From NCBI RefSeq assembly GCF_017549005.1, contig NZ_JAFYYT010000028.1, positions 40,642-104,641 on the forward strand: DNA of 64,000 nt, read 5' to 3'. The position numbers and the translations under genes are program-made. Of this stretch, positions 4,126-64,000 are shown piece by piece (within the stretch, counting starts at the first letter, position 1; every line of letters begins with the position of its first letter). Source of the stretch: Ruminococcus sp. GTDB taxonomy: Bacteria > Bacillota > Clostridia > Oscillospirales > Ruminococcaceae. The notes beneath the pieces were generated by a model. That model searched no databases and was not told the DNA's origin. It was given only the letters and a program-made list of their open reading frames with translations.

Positions 4126-5941
4126 ATTTCAGCCTTATGTCGAACCTTTCCAGCCAGTAGTTCAACTGTATGAAATAGGCTATGGTCTGCGGAAGATTCA
4201 TTAGCTGACCGTACCACTGTACGCTTTCTTCATGGCGCAGAAGCTTTTCCAGTTCCTCGCGCCTGACGAGCTGCGTCAGCTTTTCTCCGCCGTTATCCAG
4301 TATACTGCGGAGCTTTTCCGTAACTCCTGCCAGGAACGCAGGATTATGGGTCTTTGGGTAGGGGCTTTTCTTGCGCCACAGGACTTTTTCGGGAAGCCAT
4401 TTCTTCATGGCTTCGCGGAGAAGTCCTTTTTCTCTGCCTTTGTAGTCCTTGTACTCCCACGGCACGTTGTAGAGGTACTCGGCTATGCGGTAGTCGCAGA
4501 AAGGCACGCGGACTTCAAGTCCGCTGTACATGGACATTCTGTCCTTGCGGTCAAGGAGGGTCTGCATGAACCAGTGGAAATTCAGCTGCGTCATTTCACG
4601 CATACGGTACTCCAGGGGACTGTCCGTGCTGAGCTTTTCCGCATAGTCAGCTGTAGTCCTGTAGGCGGAGTAGACATACTCCTCGGCGTTTATGCGCTCA
4701 GCGTATTCATCGCAAAGGAAACGCTTTCGGTAGGCGGTGCTCTGAGCCCACGGGAAACCGTCCGTCATGCGGATATCCTTATCCCTGTACCAGGGATAGC
4801 CGCCGAATATCTCGTCGGCGCACTCGCCCGAAAGAGCCACTGTGCCATGCTTCTTTATCTCGCGGCAGAAAAGCAGCAGAGAAGCGTCAACATCCGCCAT
4901 TCCGGGCAGTCCGCGGGCTTCGGTGGCTTCATCGAGAGCTTCTATAAGCTCGGGAGTATCTATCACAGTCCAGTGGTGGTCGGAGCCGAGGTATTCAGCC
5001 ATGCAGGTGATGTACTCAGGATCGCTGTCGGGCTGGAAATGGCTCTTCCGGAAGTATTTGCCGTTGTCGCGGTAGTCCACGGAGAATGTGGTCAGGCGCC
5101 TGCCCTGTTTTTTCATCTCCGCAGCTGCGACTGAGGATATAAGGCTGGAATCAAGTCCGCCCGAAAGGAAGGTGCAGACGGGCACGTCGGATACGAGCTG
5201 ACGTTTTATGGAGTCAAGAACGAGCTGGCGGACGTGCTCGGCGGTCTGCTCAAAGCTCTCGTGGAGCTCACAGGCTCTGAGCCGCCAGTACTCCCACAGC
5301 TTCAGACCGTCGGGGGAGTAATATCCGCACCAGCCCGGCTTCAGCTCCTCAACGCCGCGGATAATTCCGCAGCCCATAGTACGTCCAGGTGCCATTAGGA
5401 GGAGCTCCGCAGCGCCGTATTCGTCAATTTCATGGGGAATATCGGGGTGCTCCAACAGAGCGGGGAGCTCCGAGGAGAATATGAGCTTGCGGTCGCTCTT
5501 GTAGTAAAACAGCGGTTTTACGCCTATTCTGTCCCGTGCAAGGAATACGCGGTGCTCTGCCTCGTCGTAGACTGCAAAGGCAAAAATGCCGTTGAAGCGG
5601 TCAACGCAGGAGTTTCCCCATTTTATGTAGCTTTTCAGCACTACCTCGGTGTCGGAACGTGTTGTAAACTCAAATTCGCTCTCCAGCTCGATGCGGAGCT
5701 CGGCTGTGTTGTAGAGTTCGCCGTTGTAGACTATGGTGTACTTCCCGAAGCTCATGGGCTGTCTGCCGCCGTTTATGTCGATGACAGCAAGGCGTGTGTG
5801 TATCAGGGCGGCTTCGCGGAACAGCGACATTCCGCGCTGATCGGGACCACGGCGAAGAAGGGCGCTCTGCATTTTCTCGTAGACCTTCATATCCTCGCGC
5901 ATATCTTCTTTAAAGCTTATTGCTCCAGCAATTCCGCACAT
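4124..5941 (-). CDS. asnB: asparagine synthetase, glutamine-hydrolysing
   Basis: Makes asparagine from aspartate, ATP and glutamine. The frame is open further upstream, but the start is placed at 5941 because the mature enzyme must begin Met-Cys: MCGIAGAIS puts the catalytic Cys at residue 2. The 605-residue protein has an N-terminal class II glutaminase domain (RRGPDQRG, YNGELYN) and a C-terminal ATP-pyrophosphatase domain with the loop SGGLDSS at residues 260-266. Length fits the bacterial AsnB family. It stands alone on the minus strand. Just upstream, 5983-6238 is a repeat element, so its promoter is displaced or lies inside that element. Confidence 0.95.
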   Translation of the reverse strand: MCGIAGAISFKEDMREDMKVYEKMQSALLRRGPDQRGMSLFREAALIHTRLAVIDINGGRQPMSFGKYTIVYNGELYNTAELRIELESEFEFTTRSDTEVVLKSYIKWGNSCVDRFNGIFAFAVYDEAEHRVFLARDRIGVKPLFYYKSDRKLIFSSELPALLEHPDIPHEIDEYGAAELLLMAPGRTMGCGIIRGVEELKPGWCGYYSPDGLKLWEYWRLRACELHESFEQTAEHVRQLVLDSIKRQLVSDVPVCTFLSGGLDSSLISSVAAAEMKKQGRRLTTFSVDYRDNGKYFRKSHFQPDSDPEYITCMAEYLGSDHHWTVIDTPELIEALDEATEARGLPGMADVDASLLLFCREIKKHGTVALSGECADEIFGGYPWYRDKDIRMTDGFPWAQSTAYRKRFLCDEYAERINAEEYVYSAYRTTADYAEKLSTDSPLEYRMREMTQLNFHWFMQTLLDRKDRMSMYSGLEVRVPFCDYRIAEYLYNVPWEYKDYKGREKGLLREAMKKWLPEKVLWRKKSPYPKTHNPAFLAGVTEKLRSILDNGGEKLTQLVRREELEKLLRHEESVQWYGQLMNLPQTIAYFIQLNYWLERFDIRLK

Positions 5942-30452: not shown

Positions 30453-30481
30453 TTGCGGTTCATATGAACTTATGTTATAAT
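30453..30481 (+). promoter_or_regulatory. promoter of the DUF1836-SPFH cluster
   Basis: TTGCGG (30453-30458), 17-bp spacer, TATAAT (30476-30481) preceded by TGT. Confidence 0.65.
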
Positions 30482-30511
30482 CATATCATCATCAGAGAGG
30501 AGTTAAAGACG

Positions 30512-31078
30512 ATGAGTAGATTGATACCGGGCACAACAATGAAGTTTACAGATCAGGCAAGAGAATCAGCATTTTCCCTTATTTCTCCGGTGCTTGAGGC
30601 TACGGGCGGACTTACGCTCTCACAGCTCTCAAAGCTGACAGGCCTTGAGGGAACGACCATACAGAACTGGATCAAACGAGGGTGGGTATCTGCTACCAAG
30701 GGCAAGAAGTATTCCGAAAAGCAGATACTTCGCATACTCCTGATAAATATGCTCCGCAAGGCTATGAAGCTTGAGGATATCGCAAATCTTATGCGCTACA
30801 TCAACGGTGACGTTGAAGATACCTCTGACGATATCATAGATGATATACTCCTTTATGATATCCTTTGCAGGATAATCTTCACAGCCGAGGACGAGGGTGC
30901 TTTCGATACAGAGCATATCAAGGCTCTTGTAGCTCAGGAGGTCGCAGATAACACAAAGGCTATCGCCGATGACGAAAAGCTCAAAAAAGCAATGTTCGTC
31001 ATGGTAATGGGTTATCGCAGCGGCTGTCTCAGGACTGAAATGGAAAAGGGACTTGAGGTAATTCTCGACGAAATGTAA
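30512..31078 (+). CDS. DUF1836-family putative regulator
   Basis: DUF1836 proteins carry a MerR-like helix-turn-helix and are predicted regulators; no target is established. ATG 30512 (MSRLIPGTTMKF) has GAGGAG upstream and gives 188 residues. The HTH is LTLSQLSKLTGLEGTTIQNWIKRGWV at about 37-62. The family core follows: KYSEKQILRILLINMLRKAMKLEDIANLMRYINGDV and the acidic DDIIDDILLYD. It starts a five-gene plus-strand cluster with three small paralogs and an SPFH protein, and could control it. Confidence 0.85.
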   Translation: MSRLIPGTTMKFTDQARESAFSLISPVLEATGGLTLSQLSKLTGLEGTTIQNWIKRGWVSATKGKKYSEKQILRILLINMLRKAMKLEDIANLMRYINGDVEDTSDDIIDDILLYDILCRIIFTAEDEGAFDTEHIKALVAQEVADNTKAIADDEKLKKAMFVMVMGYRSGCLRTEMEKGLEVILDEM

Positions 31079-31127
31079 GTTTAGGGGTAAACATTACAGT
31101 ATATATGGTATACGGGAGGTATTGAAT

Positions 31128-31325
31128 ATGAATGTTGTAACTGCATTATTAATGAACAAAAAGAAGATAATCAAGCTTTTTGAAGTATCAAAGGCGTTTT
31201 CGGCAGACAGTGCAAAGACTCTTGACGAAATGGGTATCTTTAATCCCGAAGCAACATTTGAACTTCTGTACGACAACGTGATATCAGCAACAGAGGACGG
31301 AAAATATTATCTCAACAAGGCTTAA
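31128..31325 (+). CDS. small paralog 1 of 3, function unknown
   Basis: Not recognised. ATG 31128 has GGGAGGT at 31114-31120, and the TTG at 31122 is too close to it. The 65-residue basic protein begins MNVVTALLMNKKKIIKLFE. It shares the pattern of its two downstream copies: a Lys-rich helix, A-S-x(3)-AK-x-LDE-(M/I)-G, then VIS-x-T-x-DGKYYLN at the end. The pattern reads as a mini winged helix (helix, helix, beta hairpin), but no DNA-binding evidence exists. The spacing to the next copy is 33 bp. Confidence 0.75.
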   Translation: MNVVTALLMNKKKIIKLFEVSKAFSADSAKTLDEMGIFNPEATFELLYDNVISATEDGKYYLNKA

Positions 31326-31358
31326 AGCTTATAACGTACAATTAAGAGGTGAACCATT

Positions 31359-31577
31359 ATGGCATTTGTATTTGCTCCGCCAGTTGGACTTATAAAGAAA
31401 AAAAGAGTGATCAGGGCGCTTATGAAAGCAAACGCTTATTCAGAAAGCAGCGCCAAAAGGCTTGATGAAATAGGACTGTTCAATCCGTACTCATTCCCGT
31501 TGGTGACCGCCCGGATGATACGGCGTCACGTAATATCAGTCACTGATGACGGAAGATATTACATTAACAGGACATGA
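31359..31577 (+). CDS. small paralog 2 of 3, function unknown
   Basis: A 72-residue basic protein beginning MAFVFAPPVGLIKKKRVIRAL. It aligns with the copies before and after it: KANAYSESSAKRLDEIGLFNP, then RMIRRHVISVTDDGRYYINR. Compared with copy 1 it has about seven more residues at the N terminus, hydrophobic and Pro-containing. GAGGTG precedes the ATG. Closer to copy 3 than to copy 1, especially in the YxFP-x(3)-T-x-RMI(R/K)R segment, so copies 2 and 3 probably come from the later duplication. Confidence 0.78.
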   Translation: MAFVFAPPVGLIKKKRVIRALMKANAYSESSAKRLDEIGLFNPYSFPLVTARMIRRHVISVTDDGRYYINRT

Positions 31578-31606
31578 TGTATAAGATATAGTAGAGGAGG
31601 GTCAAT

Positions 31607-31816
31607 ATGGCATTTCTTCCATCTGTTTTCTATATGAGAAAAATAAAAATAATCAGCTTGCTCATGAGCGCAAACGCTTTTTCAGCTGATACTGCAAAAA
31701 GACTTGATGAGATCGGCCTCACAGAGCCTTACGCATTCCCGTCACTGACAGTCCGCATGATAAAAAGGAATGTCATTTCGGTGACGGGTGAGGGAAAGAT
31801 CTATCTTTGCCAGTAA
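31607..31816 (+). CDS. small paralog 3 of 3, function unknown
   Basis: A 69-residue basic protein beginning MAFLPSVFYMRKIKIISLL. It has the shared SANAFSADTAKRLDEIGL and RMIKRNVISVTGEGKIYL segments; the final YYxN is changed to IYLCQ. GGAGG precedes the ATG and the gene ends 13 bp before the SPFH start, so the two are very likely translated from one mRNA. Three separate ribosome sites for three paralogs suggest each copy is kept on purpose. Confidence 0.78.
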   Translation: MAFLPSVFYMRKIKIISLLMSANAFSADTAKRLDEIGLTEPYAFPSLTVRMIKRNVISVTGEGKIYLCQ

Positions 31817-31829
31817 AAGGAGAATAATT

Positions 31830-32723
31830 ATGGCAGTAAATGTAAGAGAAGTAAATGGAAATACAGCACCGAGGAAGTCAGGCTTCAAGGGTGTGAAGTG
31901 GATCATCGCAGGACTTGCAGCGATTTTTGTGGCTGCCAATTCCTTTACGATAGTTCCTGCAGGACATACGGGAGTAACGCTCACGCTGGGCGAGGTTGCA
32001 AGCAATCCGCTTCCTGAGGGCTTTCATTTGAAGGCTCCCTTCATTCAGACAGTAGAGAAGATGTCAAACAAGATACAGGTATATCAGACAGACGCTTCGG
32101 CGGTATCAAGAGACCTTCAGACCGTAAAGAGCACTATTGCCGTAAACTACAGACTTGTTTCGGATATGACCCCGAAGATGTACAAGGATACAGGTATGGA
32201 GTATGAGACCATTCTCATGATGCCTGTGGTACAGGAGTGTATGAAGTCCGCAACAGCCAAGTACAACGCAGAACAGCTCATCACAGAGCGTGAATCTGTC
32301 AGCAACGAGGTAAAGTCGGCTCTCGATGAAAAGCTTAATGGATATGGTATCTATATAGAAAAGTTCAACATCGTGAACTTTGATTTCTCAAAGGAGTTCA
32401 ACGAGGCTATCGAAGCTAAGCAGGTAGCTGAGCAGAATCTTCTCAAGACCAAGACAGAGCAGGAACAGGCAAAGGTAGTTGCAAAGACCGAGGCTGAGAA
32501 GAAGGTCATCGCCGCCAATGCGGAGGCTGAGGCCATACTCGCTCAGGCACAGGCTCAGGCTGACGCCAACAGGCTCCTTGAGGAGTCGCTCTCCAATAAG
32601 GTTATCGCCTATGAGCAGATACAGAAGTGGAACGGTGTAATGCCTAAAGTTACAGGCAACAGCAACGGCGGACTTCTCATAGACGTTAATATAGATGACG
32701 CAGCACCAAATGCTGCAGACTGA
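31830..32723 (+). CDS. SPFH/prohibitin-like membrane protein
   Basis: SPFH (band 7) proteins form ring-like scaffolds on membranes. ATG 31830 has AAAAGGAGA upstream; the longer frame is not used. The 297-residue protein has one N-terminal membrane helix (WIIAGLAAIFVAANSF, about 26-42), the prohibitin-like IVPAGHTGVTLTLGEV, the SPFH core with TVKSTIAVNYRLV, and a long Ala/Glu helix ending in EAILAQAQAQADANRLLEESL. A C-terminal KWNGVMPKVTGNSNGGLLIDV resembles prohibitin-family ends. It is the last gene of the DUF1836 cluster. Relatives act with membrane proteases or flotillin-type domains, but no protease is nearby. Confidence 0.9.
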   Translation: MAVNVREVNGNTAPRKSGFKGVKWIIAGLAAIFVAANSFTIVPAGHTGVTLTLGEVASNPLPEGFHLKAPFIQTVEKMSNKIQVYQTDASAVSRDLQTVKSTIAVNYRLVSDMTPKMYKDTGMEYETILMMPVVQECMKSATAKYNAEQLITERESVSNEVKSALDEKLNGYGIYIEKFNIVNFDFSKEFNEAIEAKQVAEQNLLKTKTEQEQAKVVAKTEAEKKVIAANAEAEAILAQAQAQADANRLLEESLSNKVIAYEQIQKWNGVMPKVTGNSNGGLLIDVNIDDAAPNAAD

Positions 32724-32731
32724 ACTGAAAA

Positions 32732-33115
32732 TTGACTTTCGGGGGTCAACACGCTCTCGGAGCGGAATAAAGTTCTCATTCTCCGTTGGGGAACGGGAAA
32801 TGAGGACACTCATCTGACCAGGAAAAATAGGGATCCGAAGCTGCTTGAAAGAAAGCTTCGCAAAATAAAAAGTGCAGATGTCTTGGGGAAGACGGTCTGC
32901 ACAGGGGTAAACGATTCATATAAAGCATATAAATTCACATTACGCCATGATATAGGGGTGATCGGGGGTAAACGATCACTCAGGCAGAATGCGGTGGTTT
33001 TCTTGAAAAAAGCAGAGACAATGGGATTTCGGGTCTCTGAAGGGATGTATTGGGCGTTCCTTTACAACACTATAGGGGGATCTCAGGGAGAGCTTATGTA
33101 GGGGTACATAAGCTC
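32732..33115 (+). ncRNA. candidate structured RNA or 3' UTR: hairpins, several with GGGG in the loop
   Basis: The gap 32724-33082 and the following 33 bp hold at least eight hairpins: 32732-32749, 32752-32764, 32775-32804 (loop GGGG), 32836-32860, 32872-32902 (loop GGGG), 32958-32979 (7-bp stem, loop GGGGTAAA), 33014-33038 and 33090-33115 (perfect 11-bp stem, loop GGGG). GGGGTAAACGAT occurs twice, at 32904-32915 and 32965-32976. No known RNA family was recognised and no separate promoter is clear; it may be a 3' UTR of the SPFH transcript. Confidence 0.4.
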
Positions 33116-33895
33116 TTCCGCATTTTTATGGAAAATAAGCTCTTTTTCGGAGTCCGTGAGGGGGAGCCTTTCTATCATGGCTATCTCGTTTGCCGGATCG
33201 TCCCAGGGGCAGTCGCTGCCGAAGAGGACTTTGTCTGCACCCTGCATACGGATTATGCGGAAGAGCTGCTCGTCCTCTATATATCGGGCGATAACGCTCA
33301 CATCGAACCACAGGTTATCATATCTGCCTGCGGTGTATTTTTCAATATCGTTCCAAAGCTTCATGCCGCCGAGATGTGCGGCTATTATTTTCAGTTTCGG
33401 GAAGTTCTCAGCCACGGCCGCAAAGCTCTGCGGAGTGGCTCTTATAATATCCTCCGAGTACGGGTCCCAGCCGCCGTGAAAGACCGCAAGGAGCCCGAGT
33501 TCTGCTATTTTTTCGTATATGGGGAACATTCTCTCCTCGTCGGGACAGAATTTCTGATATTCCGAGTGGAACTTTACTCCGCACAGACCGAGGCTTTTTA
33601 TCCTTTCAACCTCGTCAAGGGCGTCCTCGGCGTCGGGGTGGACAGTTCCGCAGCAATAAAGACCGCCGCCCTTAACGGACGCAGCCCATTTGTTGATAGT
33701 TGCCTGCTGTGAGGGCTTTGTTGCCACAGGAAGCAGCATTGCACGTTCTATGCCGTTTTCGGCAAGCTTTCTGCGGAGCCCGTCTACGGTACCGTCTGTT
33801 GCGGGCGATATGCCGCTTGTCTTGGCAAGTCCCGAAAGTGCGCGCTGAGCGAGCTCATCAGTGAAGGCATGGGTGTGAAAGTCGAAATACCGCAT
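33083..33895 (-). CDS. amidohydrolase-family metal-dependent hydrolase
   Basis: TIM-barrel hydrolase of the amidohydrolase_2 type; substrate unknown. Of 270 residues, the start MRYFDFHTHAF supplies the HxH metal ligands. GVKFHSEYQKF and FHGGWDPYS follow, then IIAAHLGGMKLW (His) and FGSDCPWDDP with the final catalytic Asp. The last codons lie inside the 33090-33115 hairpin. It follows an ArsR gene by 3 bp and is probably cotranscribed with it. It could act on a small-molecule amide or ester, but the sequence gives no hint which. Confidence 0.85.
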   Translation of the reverse strand: MRYFDFHTHAFTDELAQRALSGLAKTSGISPATDGTVDGLRRKLAENGIERAMLLPVATKPSQQATINKWAASVKGGGLYCCGTVHPDAEDALDEVERIKSLGLCGVKFHSEYQKFCPDEERMFPIYEKIAELGLLAVFHGGWDPYSEDIIRATPQSFAAVAENFPKLKIIAAHLGGMKLWNDIEKYTAGRYDNLWFDVSVIARYIEDEQLFRIIRMQGADKVLFGSDCPWDDPANEIAMIERLPLTDSEKELIFHKNAEELMYPYISSP

Positions 33896-48044: not shown

Positions 48045-48127
48045 TGTGGAGACTCCGGGAAGCGCTTCCCGGTGCCTTCAGAGTAAAATATCATGTCCAT
48101 GATAGGATTACATGAGGGGGCTATTCT

Positions 48128-49867
48128 ATGAAAGGAAAAGTATTTATCGGAGCGCTTGCTTCGGCAGCTGCTTCGCTGCTTCTTGCAGCGGCGTCCGTTT
48201 CTGTGGGCGCGTCTGCCGCATGGAAGAAAACAGGGCTGATAGGTGATATCAACGGCGACGGTGCTGTAAATATCGCCGATATTGTCACGCTGTCGAAACA
48301 TCTGCGCGGAACTGAAAAGCTGGGCGAAGACAGCGTTTTCAGAATGGCTGACGGCAGCGATTATATCGTCAGGACTGCAGGAAAAGACGATGTGAAGCTT
48401 GAGGCGAATACACGGAGCATACAAAAAGCCGATCTGGACAGGAACGGCGCTGTTGAGGTATTTGACCTTGTGCAGCTCAGAAAGGTGGTAATTGCGTCTT
48501 CTCCCTGCGGTGAGATAATGAAATGGGAAGAGGATCCGAAGCCTGCAACAACTACCACAACTGTCGTAACAACGACCACGGCTACGACTACAACTGCTCC
48601 ACCGCCACCGCCTCCTCCGCCTCAGAAAAAGGACTTCATCGAACCGCCTTTAGCGGATATGTACGGCAGTATGCCGTCTCAGGGAAAGGTCAATCTGCTT
48701 ATATTCTATGTGGATTTTACCGACTGCAGGTTCGAATATGATCCGTCGGTGGAGGAAATAGAAAGGATAGCCTTCGGCAAAGAGGACGACAAATCGGCTT
48801 CGTATCCTTTCGAGAGCTTCAGCGCGTTCTATAAACGAGCCTCGAAGGGGGCTCTGGAACTCAGCGGAAAGGCTTACAAGTACACCTGTGAGGAAAAAAT
48901 AGCCAAATACGGCGATGATGAATATAAATCACTGTTTGCCGAAGAGGTAATAAGCAAGATGGACGATATCGTTGATTACAGTCAGTTCGACGCGAACGGT
49001 GACCATGTTATCGACGCCATACTCTTCTGTGTGCCGGGCTCTTCGGGCAACGACTGGTGGTCGTGTGCAGGGCAGTACTACGGCGAGGCGCTTACTGTTG
49101 ACGGCATGACCCCGGGACATATGATCACAGGCAATGCCGCTATCAAAAGCTCGAACAGCTATATAACTTTTATCTCCACATATTCTCATGAAATAGCTCA
49201 CTGCATGGGACTTCCCGATTATTACCTCTATAACGAGAAGAAGGATATCGACGGTATGCACGGTTCTGCGGGATTTGAACTCATGGACGAAGCTTATTCC
49301 GATCTCTCGGCAGTATCCAAGCTCATGCTCGGCTGGCTGAGAGAGGATCAGGTTCAGGTTTACGACCCTGAAAAGGGAGAGCAGACCTTCACTATCGTCA
49401 ACGGTCAGACCGACGGCGGAAACTGCCTCATAATCCCGAGAGGAGACCTTAACGGCTACAAATCTGAGTTCTTTATCGTTGAATATACCACCCTTGAGGG
49501 AAATAACAGCCTTTTAGAGTCAGCTTTCAGAAAAACCAGAGTCCTAGGAAGCGGAATAAGCGTAAAACACATCGAAGCGGACATATATACCAACATATAC
49601 GGAACTTTTTTCAAGTATCAGAGCGGACATGACGAGTATACAAATTACAATAAGGACCGCCGCTTTATCAGGCTCGTAAATGATGCTGAGGGCGATGGAA
49701 GGCATAAAACCGATAATTTCTTCTATACAGGCGATGTAATATCAAACGCTGTGAAGGGCTTTGCGTGGTATGACAGCTACGGCAGCGAGACCGTAGACCC
49801 GAATCTCACCATAACTGTGGGAGAATTGAAGGATAACGCCTATACCGTAACAGTTTCAAGAAAATAA
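48128..49867 (+). CDS. secreted dockerin-bearing metalloprotease, M6-like
   Basis: Secreted zinc peptidase with an N-terminal dockerin. Of 579 residues, there is a signal peptide (about 1-31), then two dockerin repeats (GDINGDGAVNIADIVTLSKHL and ADLDRNGAVEVFDLVQLRK), then a Thr and Pro linker at about 138-165. The catalytic domain begins near NLLIFYVDFTD. The zinc motif is SHEIAHCMGLPDYY (HExxHxxGxxD), typical of metzincin-like immune-inhibitor-A relatives. A good GAGGGGG ribosome site precedes the ATG. It probably sits on the cellulosome scaffold and may trim or protect the complex. The next gene starts 33 bp later. Confidence 0.82.
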   Translation: MKGKVFIGALASAAASLLLAAASVSVGASAAWKKTGLIGDINGDGAVNIADIVTLSKHLRGTEKLGEDSVFRMADGSDYIVRTAGKDDVKLEANTRSIQKADLDRNGAVEVFDLVQLRKVVIASSPCGEIMKWEEDPKPATTTTTVVTTTTATTTTAPPPPPPPPQKKDFIEPPLADMYGSMPSQGKVNLLIFYVDFTDCRFEYDPSVEEIERIAFGKEDDKSASYPFESFSAFYKRASKGALELSGKAYKYTCEEKIAKYGDDEYKSLFAEEVISKMDDIVDYSQFDANGDHVIDAILFCVPGSSGNDWWSCAGQYYGEALTVDGMTPGHMITGNAAIKSSNSYITFISTYSHEIAHCMGLPDYYLYNEKKDIDGMHGSAGFELMDEAYSDLSAVSKLMLGWLREDQVQVYDPEKGEQTFTIVNGQTDGGNCLIIPRGDLNGYKSEFFIVEYTTLEGNNSLLESAFRKTRVLGSGISVKHIEADIYTNIYGTFFKYQSGHDEYTNYNKDRRFIRLVNDAEGDGRHKTDNFFYTGDVISNAVKGFAWYDSYGSETVDPNLTITVGELKDNAYTVTVSRK

Positions 49868-62535: not shown

Positions 62536-64000
62536 ATGAATAGTAAAATAAAAAAATTCACAGCTAAAGTGCTTGCAGCTATTATGCTTGTCTGCACACT
62601 TGGGGCATACGATTTCGGCTCTGAAGTGAATGCTGCCGAAACCAATATGTACATTACCGCTAATTTGCATTCTTATTCATTTGATCCGACTTATAACAAG
62701 GGTGCTTGGCTTGATCCTGCTGCAGACGGAACCTTCCCTGTAATGGTGCTTGTGCACGGTGCGGGCGGTCCCGGAAATCAGTCATCGATCATGATGGACA
62801 ATATGAACAAATGGATAGCTAAGGGTTATGTTGACCCGATGGTGCTTGTGATGCCGCGCATTGATCAGATCAAGGAACCAAACTACGGTCTGATAGATTT
62901 CGGAGAGTTTGTTTCAAACGGACATTGTCAGAGTCTTGTTGATCACATAAAAGCAGGAGATGTATCTCAGAAGGCAGACCTTTCTGCTCCTTTATCCATC
63001 ATGGGATTCTCAATGGGCGGAGCAGTTTCCTTACAGGCAGGCTGCAAAATGGGTGATACATTCTCGAATGTAGGAGGTCTGAGCCCGTCATGGATATTCT
63101 ACTCGGATACAGACCTTGGATATTGTAAAAAGGCTTCGGAACTTGTATATCCAAAGAATGAGGACGGTCATTTCCTTATGGCTTACGGCGCAGGAGAAGA
63201 GGCACAGTTCAAGTATGATGTTCAGAAGAATGTATCTGCTGTTGAAAACAACGGACAGAACATAAAGAACCGCTTCAAGGTATATGAAGCTCCTGCTACT
63301 GTTAACGGAGTTCATATCCCTCATGGCTGGAATCTTTTCAAAAGAGAGATATTTGTTTTCTTGTACTACATGAAGAATGAATGCCTGCCAACTCCTGAGA
63401 TAGTTGAAGTTGCCTGCGGTTCAGGTACAGCAGGACTTTACGGAAATGTAAGCGTTAACGGTACATACAAAGAGGGTGAGACAGTAAGTGCTGTTGTTTC
63501 AGGCAGCAACGCTTCTGAATTCACATATAAATGGAGAACAGGAAAAAATTATATAAGCGGCGCTACCTCAAGCAGTTACACTCTTACTTCTGCCGATGTC
63601 GGAAAGAAGATAAGCTGTGAGCTGGCTGACAAGAGCGGCAATTTAGTGGGTGTTATAAGTGGTACTGCTTCCTCGGAGACAGTAAAGAAGTCTGATGCGG
63701 TTACAAGTGCAAAGCCTGTATCTACAACCACAAAGACTACGACTACTACGACAAAGACAACAACAAAGGCTACCACAACAACAGCGAAGCCTACAACTAC
63801 GACAACAAAGACAACTACAAAGGCTACCACAACAACAGCGAAGCCTACAACTACGACAACAAAGACAACTACAAAGGCTACCACAACAACAGCAAAGCCT
63901 ACAACCACGACAACAAAGACAACTACAAAGGCTACCACAACAACAGCAAAGCCTACAACTACGACAACAAAGACAACTACAAAGGCTACCACAACAACAG
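62536..64000 (+). CDS. secreted esterase with Ig-like domain and Thr-rich repeats (3' end outside the window)
   Basis: AAGGAGGT precedes ATG 62536, and the frame stays open to the window edge (488 codons seen). A signal peptide (about 1-36, cleavage near VNAAE) is followed by an alpha/beta-hydrolase domain: VMVLVHGAGGPGN (oxyanion), nucleophile elbow GFSMGG, a likely catalytic His in VNGVHIPHGW. An Ig-like domain (about 300-390, FTYKWRTG ... SADVGKKISCEL) and a Thr-rich region with 18-residue repeats follow. By analogy with neighbouring dockerin proteins it may end in a dockerin outside the window. Feruloyl or acetyl-xylan esterase is the likely class; the substrate is inferred. Confidence 0.85.
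   Translation, partial: MNSKIKKFTAKVLAAIMLVCTLGAYDFGSEVNAAETNMYITANLHSYSFDPTYNKGAWLDPAADGTFPVMVLVHGAGGPGNQSSIMMDNMNKWIAKGYVDPMVLVMPRIDQIKEPNYGLIDFGEFVSNGHCQSLVDHIKAGDVSQKADLSAPLSIMGFSMGGAVSLQAGCKMGDTFSNVGGLSPSWIFYSDTDLGYCKKASELVYPKNEDGHFLMAYGAGEEAQFKYDVQKNVSAVENNGQNIKNRFKVYEAPATVNGVHIPHGWNLFKREIFVFLYYMKNECLPTPEIVEVACGSGTAGLYGNVSVNGTYKEGETVSAVVSGSNASEFTYKWRTGKNYISGATSSSYTLTSADVGKKISCELADKSGNLVGVISGTASSETVKKSDAVTSAKPVSTTTKTTTTTTKTTTKATTTTAKPTTTTTKTTTKATTTTAKPTTTTTKTTTKATTTTAKPTTTTTKTTTKATTTTAKPTTTTTKTTTKATTTT
63766..64000 (+). repeat. 54-bp tandem repeat coding for a Thr-rich linker
   Basis: Copies start at 63766, 63820, 63874 and 63928; a fifth from 63982 is cut by the window edge. Each encodes KATTTTAKPTTTTTKTTT. 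Copies differ by a few silent changes (gcg/gca, act/acc). Confidence 0.95.

Follow-up and report, generated by a model that had tools for sequence, protein, structure and literature searches.

A hairpin-rich RNA element with GGGG loops at the 3' end of a Ruminococcus operon, a probable sponge of a conserved C-rich small RNA

A short intergenic segment in the genome of Ruminococcus sp. (genome G000, 3.33 Mb) is crowded with hairpins, many of which expose the tetranucleotide GGGG in the loop. The segment is located near the middle of the window, the stretch of 64,000 nucleotides analyzed here, and raises the question of what its loops recognize. The first-pass annotation had described hairpins packed after an SPFH gene, assignable to no RNA family, and had supposed that G-tracts in the loops might contact each other or form G-quadruplexes. 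We regard it as probable that the segment is a sponge, carried by the 3' end of an operon mRNA, which captures a conserved C-rich small RNA (sRNA). By computation, the element is conserved, its hairpins change on both sides of the stems, an sRNA gene with covarying stems lies beside a two-component system, and the complementarity between the two RNAs goes beyond that of shuffled sequences.

The element begins right after the SPFH stop codon, and ends with a terminator-like hairpin followed by a T-rich tail. No promoter-like match was found on the plus strand just before it, and the element is therefore most simply seen as the 3' end of the operon transcript. Its predicted fold (-148.4 kcal/mol, z-score -8.9) is equalled in stability by none of 100 shuffled sequences; the reverse strand is structured too (z-score -8.85), yet less stable (-116.9 kcal/mol). 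Eight hairpin loops are present in the minimum free energy (MFE) structure, in keeping with the density of hairpins initially noted, and four of them feature GGGG, compared to an average of 0.33 and a maximum of 2 GGGG loops in shuffles. GGGG tetraloops closed by perfect stems of at least 5 bp start at 32788, 32885 and 33101, as already annotated, and at 31084, a fourth site of the same operon which had gone unreported. Hairpins of this type (stem of at least 5 bp) number four in 864 kb searched on both strands, all inside this operon. What exceeds expectation is their clustering, not their total, which amounts to 4 of 2454 GGGG sites, compared to a mean rate of 16 per 10,000; under looser rules (stems of at least 7 bp with G-U pairs, loops of up to 10 nt), 12 of 2459 GGGG sites form hairpins, within the range of six other tetramers. 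The loop GGGGTAAA lies at 32965-32972 and two copies of GGGGTAAACGAT, at 32904 and 32965, are 61 bp apart, both as first described; the loop has the closing stem GTGATCG/CGATCAC. The last hairpin overlaps the coding 3' end of the convergent amidohydrolase gene (minus strand, stop codon ending at 33083), but the 11-bp stem attributed to it was too short, as 12 Watson-Crick pairs are formed, 15 including G-U pairs. The view that the stretch is a non-coding structured RNA outside the known families holds: no Rfam family matched the element at gathering score, the weak matches having E values of 0.32 or more. A coding function was considered for an open reading frame (ORF) of 72 aa (32883-33101) found inside the element, and rejected, as insertions and deletions in homologues and pairs kept through two-sided changes favour an RNA.

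The element is carried by at least 19 of 125 genomes of the genus, in the Ruminococcus flavefaciens group. A blastn search of 100 genus genomes gave 18 matches; G085 (25 nt) and G029 (31 nt) were dropped as doubtful before counting, G101 was added by a search of all 125 genomes with another member, and G100 via a search with the small-ORF protein. The G045 copy is divided between two contig ends (L029 about 1640-1760 and L039), interrupted by foreign sequence that begins an ORF which we take to be transposase-like; this copy is counted among the 19, but is absent from the 18 full sequences analyzed below. Among 12 named contigs with the core pattern, 11 are from Ruminococcus and one from an unassigned Bacillota bin, and no stretch with the core pattern was found in the viral collection. 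Of the 18 sequences, four resemble the window element, seven belong to a second long form and six to a short form devoid of the middle, while in one the middle is duplicated. The extract from L157 overshoots its terminator hairpin by about 40 nt in the folding, site, shuffle, co-fold, order and G-quadruplex analyses.

Identity to the window sequence drops to about 61%, and all 18 homologues are predicted to fold stably (MFE z-scores from -4.1 to -10.0), with 2 to 6 GGGG apical loops each, compared to shuffle means of 0.13 to 0.38. Stems differ among homologues, GGGG loops mostly persist. The homologue check proposed by the first-pass annotation thus found hairpins kept and both sides of pairs changed. 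The terminator-like hairpin has a GGGG loop in 18/18 sequences; 6 of its 14 pairs show two-sided changes (16 cells, compared to 5.4 in shuffles, none of 500 being as high), with no excess of further pair types (500/500 shuffles as high). RNAalifold predicts 77 pairs from 12 sequences, 23 of which show two-sided changes. Hairpin 2 was misaligned by MAFFT, and was excluded from pair counts. The SPFH gene lies directly 5' of the RNA in 14 of the 18 genomes, as noted for the window, but a different small gene is found in the other four, hence the RNA is not tied to SPFH, and SPFH was rejected as the defining context.

Loops so rich in G could in principle serve contacts within the RNA itself, either loop-loop or in the form of a G-quadruplex, and the window element does hold eight runs of four or more G residues. 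CCCC is absent from it, and no G-quadruplex appeared in the MFE structure of any of the 18 homologues when such structures were allowed in folding. Intramolecular contacts of either sort are accordingly deemed extremely improbable. Of the initial proposal, the part that stands is that GGGG loops probably make contacts, and a partner in trans, an sRNA with a CCCC loop, fits better; GGGG-GGGG contacts and G-quadruplexes are unsupported.

A candidate for such a partner is encoded in the same genome. GGGGTAAACATT, found in the leader of the first small ORF of the operon, occurs 4 times in the genome sample, compared to 0.13 for shuffled 12-mers, and at one of these sites, on contig C31, the opposite strand is a candidate sRNA gene. 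This features a TATAAT-like region upstream, a hairpin with a UACCCC loop, an invariant unpaired C-rich linker, AUCCCCAAUAAUCCCUAUAUCAUGGCAGAUGAG, and a terminator stem. A 171-base query found matches in 107 of 125 genus genomes (E of 2e-8 or less), all 19 element carriers included; at E 0.5 the number rises to 121, the extra 14 being weak. A covariance model made from 32 sequences identified the sRNA in 33 of 297 genomes of the family, distributed over 13 of 126 genera, including Ruminococcus (E of 0.01 or less). Its stems covary, 18 of 34 pairs showing two-sided changes (50 cells, 9.5 in shuffles). At the sRNA locus, the sole Rfam match at gathering score is a neighbouring SAM riboswitch. 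Among the open-licence papers listed on small and noncoding RNAs of Ruminococcus and R. flavefaciens, none dealt with it. This undescribed sRNA extends across a genus whose members degrade fibre in rumen and gut, and is present in 12 other genera of the family. In G000 the gene is located downstream of genes for an OmpR/PhoB-type response regulator and a histidine kinase, and a homologous kinase was found at 62 of 69 sRNA loci checked, some genomes being counted twice and many loci spanning only a few hundred bases. At least two CACA words, most commonly spaced by 11 bp, precede the sRNA in 33 of 50 promoters, compared to 5 of 50 single shuffles. The adjoining two-component system, or its regulator, presumably drives the sRNA. 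In other genera of the family, some loci (L244, L247, L248) hold a further, tandem copy of the sRNA, placed about 200-250 bp 3' of the first.

Sites complementary to the sRNA are repeated along the element. In the window element one perfect site of 14 nt, two of 9 nt and two of 8 nt were found, all directed against the linker or the CCCC-loop region, and all six short forms carry a 16-nt perfect site, GTTGGGGTAAACATTA. In each of the 18 homologues, no more than 0.005 of 200 sponge shuffles and no more than 0.015 of 200 sRNA shuffles attain the summed site score, and both the reversed sRNA and the opposite strand of the element score lower in 18/18; in the site search and the shuffle test the G000 sRNA was used for all 18 genomes, not the sRNA of each genome. 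A duplex-energy scan covered 115,008 windows from 864 kb, both strands, which make up 26% of the genome. The 40-nt window from 32941, which contains the core site, ranks at the top after the antisense of the sRNA itself (-40.0 kcal/mol; the next unrelated window, -31.9), and further sites of the element rank 25th and 58th. Whole-genome blastn searches were run with the antisense of the sRNA in the 18 genomes. The operon is the best non-self match in nine (G000, G006, G043, G047, G049, G071, G081, G087, G100), the second in six (G018, G034, G040, G062, G067, and G101, tied), the third in G054. The two top sites of G100 are a tandem repeat located between small ORF and SPFH gene, each copy featuring a 17-nt perfect match. 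The sites of the element face the unpaired CCCC loop and the linker of the sRNA, and correspond to conserved boxes already marked in the alignment before the sRNA came to light. In 18/18 homologues the GGGG runs are less paired than the remainder of the RNA.

CsrB/CsrC-type RNAs, which sequester a protein, feature many hairpins with a short G-rich loop motif, GGA. The element has many hairpins as well, but its loops are GGGG. A loop motif common to many hairpins would suit the binding of an RNA-binding protein in the CsrB-CsrA fashion, as would the homologue L022, in which the position of hairpin 1 is occupied by a GGGG hairpin, TTTGGGGTAAA. CsrA is encoded in only 3 of the 125 genus genomes, and in none of the 19 carrying the RNA, and a protein would not account for antisense matches of 14 and 16 nt with a conserved sRNA, making this explanation improbable. 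Two further partners were considered and rejected. The direct repeat of type VI-D systems holds ACCCCUA, complementary to UAGGGGU. This repeat was found in 2 of 125 genomes, Cas13d-like matches in 5, among which G067 alone bears the RNA. The small-ORF protein is not a necessary partner either, as no small-ORF match was obtained in G043, G045, G047 and G087, all of which carry the RNA.

Where the order of the sites can be read, it is that of antisense sRNA. At exact matches of at least 8 nt, 3 of 11 long forms (L001, L022, L027) show two complete units colinear with the antisense, and the others show parts of this order. Short forms contain one antisense unit; in the G054 form, where a duplication of the middle is visible, there seem to be three. 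Such an order is what an inverted copy of the sRNA gene would give, and, as the last hairpin is terminator-like, the element might be only a structured terminator or a 3' region stabilizing the mRNA, the complementarity being a functionless relic of an old inverted duplication. Core sites are perfect in most homologues in spite of the drop in identity reported above, and stems are maintained through two-sided changes. This explanation is hence considered very improbable.

Repeated antisense copies of the unpaired C-rich segments of the sRNA, placed at the end of an mRNA, are best read as a sponge. Several observations weigh against this interpretation. The elements of G009 and G094 have no blastn match to the sRNA antisense at E of 10 or less, and in the seven genomes where the operon stands second or third other loci outmatch the element. 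Exact sites exceed the remainder of the RNA in accessibility in 13/18 homologues only. Nested co-folding of the whole RNAs, a model which leaves kissing loops out, beats the mean of 12 shuffled sRNAs in 18/18 but the best of the 12 in only 7/18, the gain being modest. The pairing sites of the sRNA are nearly invariant among sponge-bearing genomes, leaving no intermolecular covariation to read. At the other end of the operon, the leader site of small ORF 1 ranks 807th in the energy scan in G000, and leader complementarity reaches p 0.05 in 8 of 14 genomes only.

The leader bears on another explanation as well. The operon mRNA could be a plain target, whose own stability or translation is altered when the sRNA pairs with its 3' region and its leader, with no titration involved. 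Stretches complementary to the sRNA occur in the small ORF 1 leader of several genomes, in some over the ribosome-binding region, but this complementarity is uneven, as the figure just given indicates, and several sites in one RNA, far from start codons, make up the layout expected of a decoy. We consider a plain target unlikely. Because of the rank and the uneven p values of the leader, the evidence that the operon is a target through its leader is suggestive only. Possible sRNA sites were also noticed at 48091-48130 in the window, just before a gene for a dockerin protein (48128-49864), and near the start codon of a protein of no Pfam family (L117:17395); both are weaker, unconfirmed candidate targets. 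Intergenic sites outside the operon (L255 1536-1569, L256 1718-1750, L257 1680-1712) show long imperfect complementarity to the sRNA, exceeding that of the sponge there; the L255 site lies shortly upstream of a gene start.

According to the sponge interpretation, both RNAs would be made and would pair in the cell, and titration would result. In each antisense unit a linker site comes first and a GGGGUAAAC loop site second. The GGGG hairpins could engage the CCCC loop of the sRNA in kissing contacts, core sites could form longer duplexes with the sRNA, and GCCAUGAUAUAGGG, GGGGUAAAC and CCCC are the segments expected to be in contact on pairing. On transcription of the operon, the linker and the loop, through which the sRNA probably acts on its targets, would be taken up by the sponge, and regulation by the sRNA would be relieved. 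As the leader of small ORF 1 has a complementary stretch in G000, the operon may be both target and sponge. A broader scheme is offered tentatively, and may well not hold: an sRNA linked to a two-component system would be opposed, in one clade, by an operon which is at once its target, through the leader, and a multivalent sponge, made of 1-3 antisense units and interchangeable GGGG kissing hairpins. If true, this would be a self-reinforcing switch, the strength of which evolves by gain or loss of sponge units.

A structured RNA hitherto unexplained gains in this way a concrete partner, and both become testable. If the sponge interpretation is right, natural sponges would gain a case beyond Bacillus and Staphylococcus, and sponge valence could be studied directly in homologues whose binding units number one, two and perhaps three. 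RosA of Bacillus subtilis is a sponge of RoxS and FsrA, directing G-rich regions against C-rich regions of the sRNAs, and is described as the first confirmed Gram-positive sponge (PMC8216469). The likeness lies in G-rich regions complementary to C-rich sRNA regions in a Gram-positive host; in contrast to RosA as described there, the present element resides at the 3' end of an operon, measures about 405 nt, combines several antisense units with GGGG hairpins, and is directed at another sRNA. According to the same source, RsaI of Staphylococcus aureus also binds C-rich sRNAs by two G-rich regions, but is stand-alone and has a C-rich region of its own for mRNA targets (PMC8216469), whereas the element here lacks CCCC. 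In Clostridioides difficile, sRNA sponging is discussed as a possibility (PMC10267692).

On the side of the sRNA, the nearest kind is the csRNA family of streptococci (RF02379). With csRNAs as described (PMC3091779, PMC8186281), the partner sRNA has in common a stem-loop, an unpaired C-rich linker with CAU, a terminator and a link to a two-component system; csRNAs belong to the CiaR regulon, whereas the partner sRNA adjoins regulator genes. The partner sRNA scores 30.6 bits with the RF02379 model, below the gathering score of 57. The CiaR-type promoter repeat TTTAAG-N5-TTTAAG was found in none of 50 partner-sRNA promoters, and the csRNA motif UCCUAAA in only 2 of 50 sequences.

Coordinates of the operon, of the element and of its parts are listed in Table 1.

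Table 1. Features of the operon, the RNA element and the partner sRNA (positions refer to the window unless otherwise indicated)
Feature	Position	Strand	Support or remark
DUF1836/MerR-like regulator gene, first gene of the operon	30464..31078	+	
Leader hairpin GTTTA-GGGG-TAAAC ahead of small ORF 1; GGGGTAAACATT (31084-31095) complementary to sRNA loop region	31079..31092	+	
Three related tandem small ORFs (31128-31325, 31359-31577, 31607-31816)	31128..31816	+	no Pfam family
SPFH (Band 7) gene, directly 5' of the element	31830..32723	+	
Structured RNA element, probably sponge-like, 3' end of operon	32724..33128	+	fold z-score -8.9; 18 full homologues folded; alignments
Hairpin 1, CGCTC-TCG-GAGCG	32752..32764	+	kept in alignment
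Hairpin 2, GGGG loop at 32788-32791	32772..32807	+	GGGG in 17/18 homologous segments, stems very different
Unit 1 linker site CTCATCTG, complementary to sRNA 96-103	32809..32816	+	exact complement
Unit 1 linker site ATAGGGAT, complementary to sRNA 81-88	32827..32834	+	exact complement
Hairpin 4, GGGG loop at 32885-32888	32872..32902	+	GGGG in 15/16 homologous segments cut out of 18
Unit 1 loop site GGGGTAAAC, complementary to sRNA 46-54	32904..32912	+	exact complement
Unit 2 core site GCCATGATATAGGG, complementary to sRNA 83-96	32944..32957	+	exact complement
Core hairpin GTGATCG-GGGGTAAA-CGATCAC, holding unit 2 loop site GGGGTAAAC at 32965-32973	32958..32979	+	
Terminator-like hairpin, GGGG loop, then T-rich tail	33086..33128	+	loop and pair conservation across homologues
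Convergent amidohydrolase gene, downstream neighbour	33083..33895	-	
Candidate sRNA gene, about 134 nt	G000 contig C31:99631-99764, outside the window	+	

The number of small-ORF copies varies among genomes. In G031 (L160 1370-1600), GGGG hairpins and GGGGTAAACATT follow the SPFH gene and form the 5' leader of a small ORF, an arrangement indicating that the motif is also found in front of the small-ORF family.

Two other stretches were noticed. On the minus strand of L115, at about 4400-4900 (G000:C41, about 84.4-84.9 kb), are three related stretches rich in G-runs, which have T-runs and arms of the type AGCAAGCT...GCTTGCT, and which matched no Rfam family. Tandem repeats with a 54-bp period (ACAAAGGCTACCACAACAACAG...), probably coding, occupy the end of the window at about 63763-64000.
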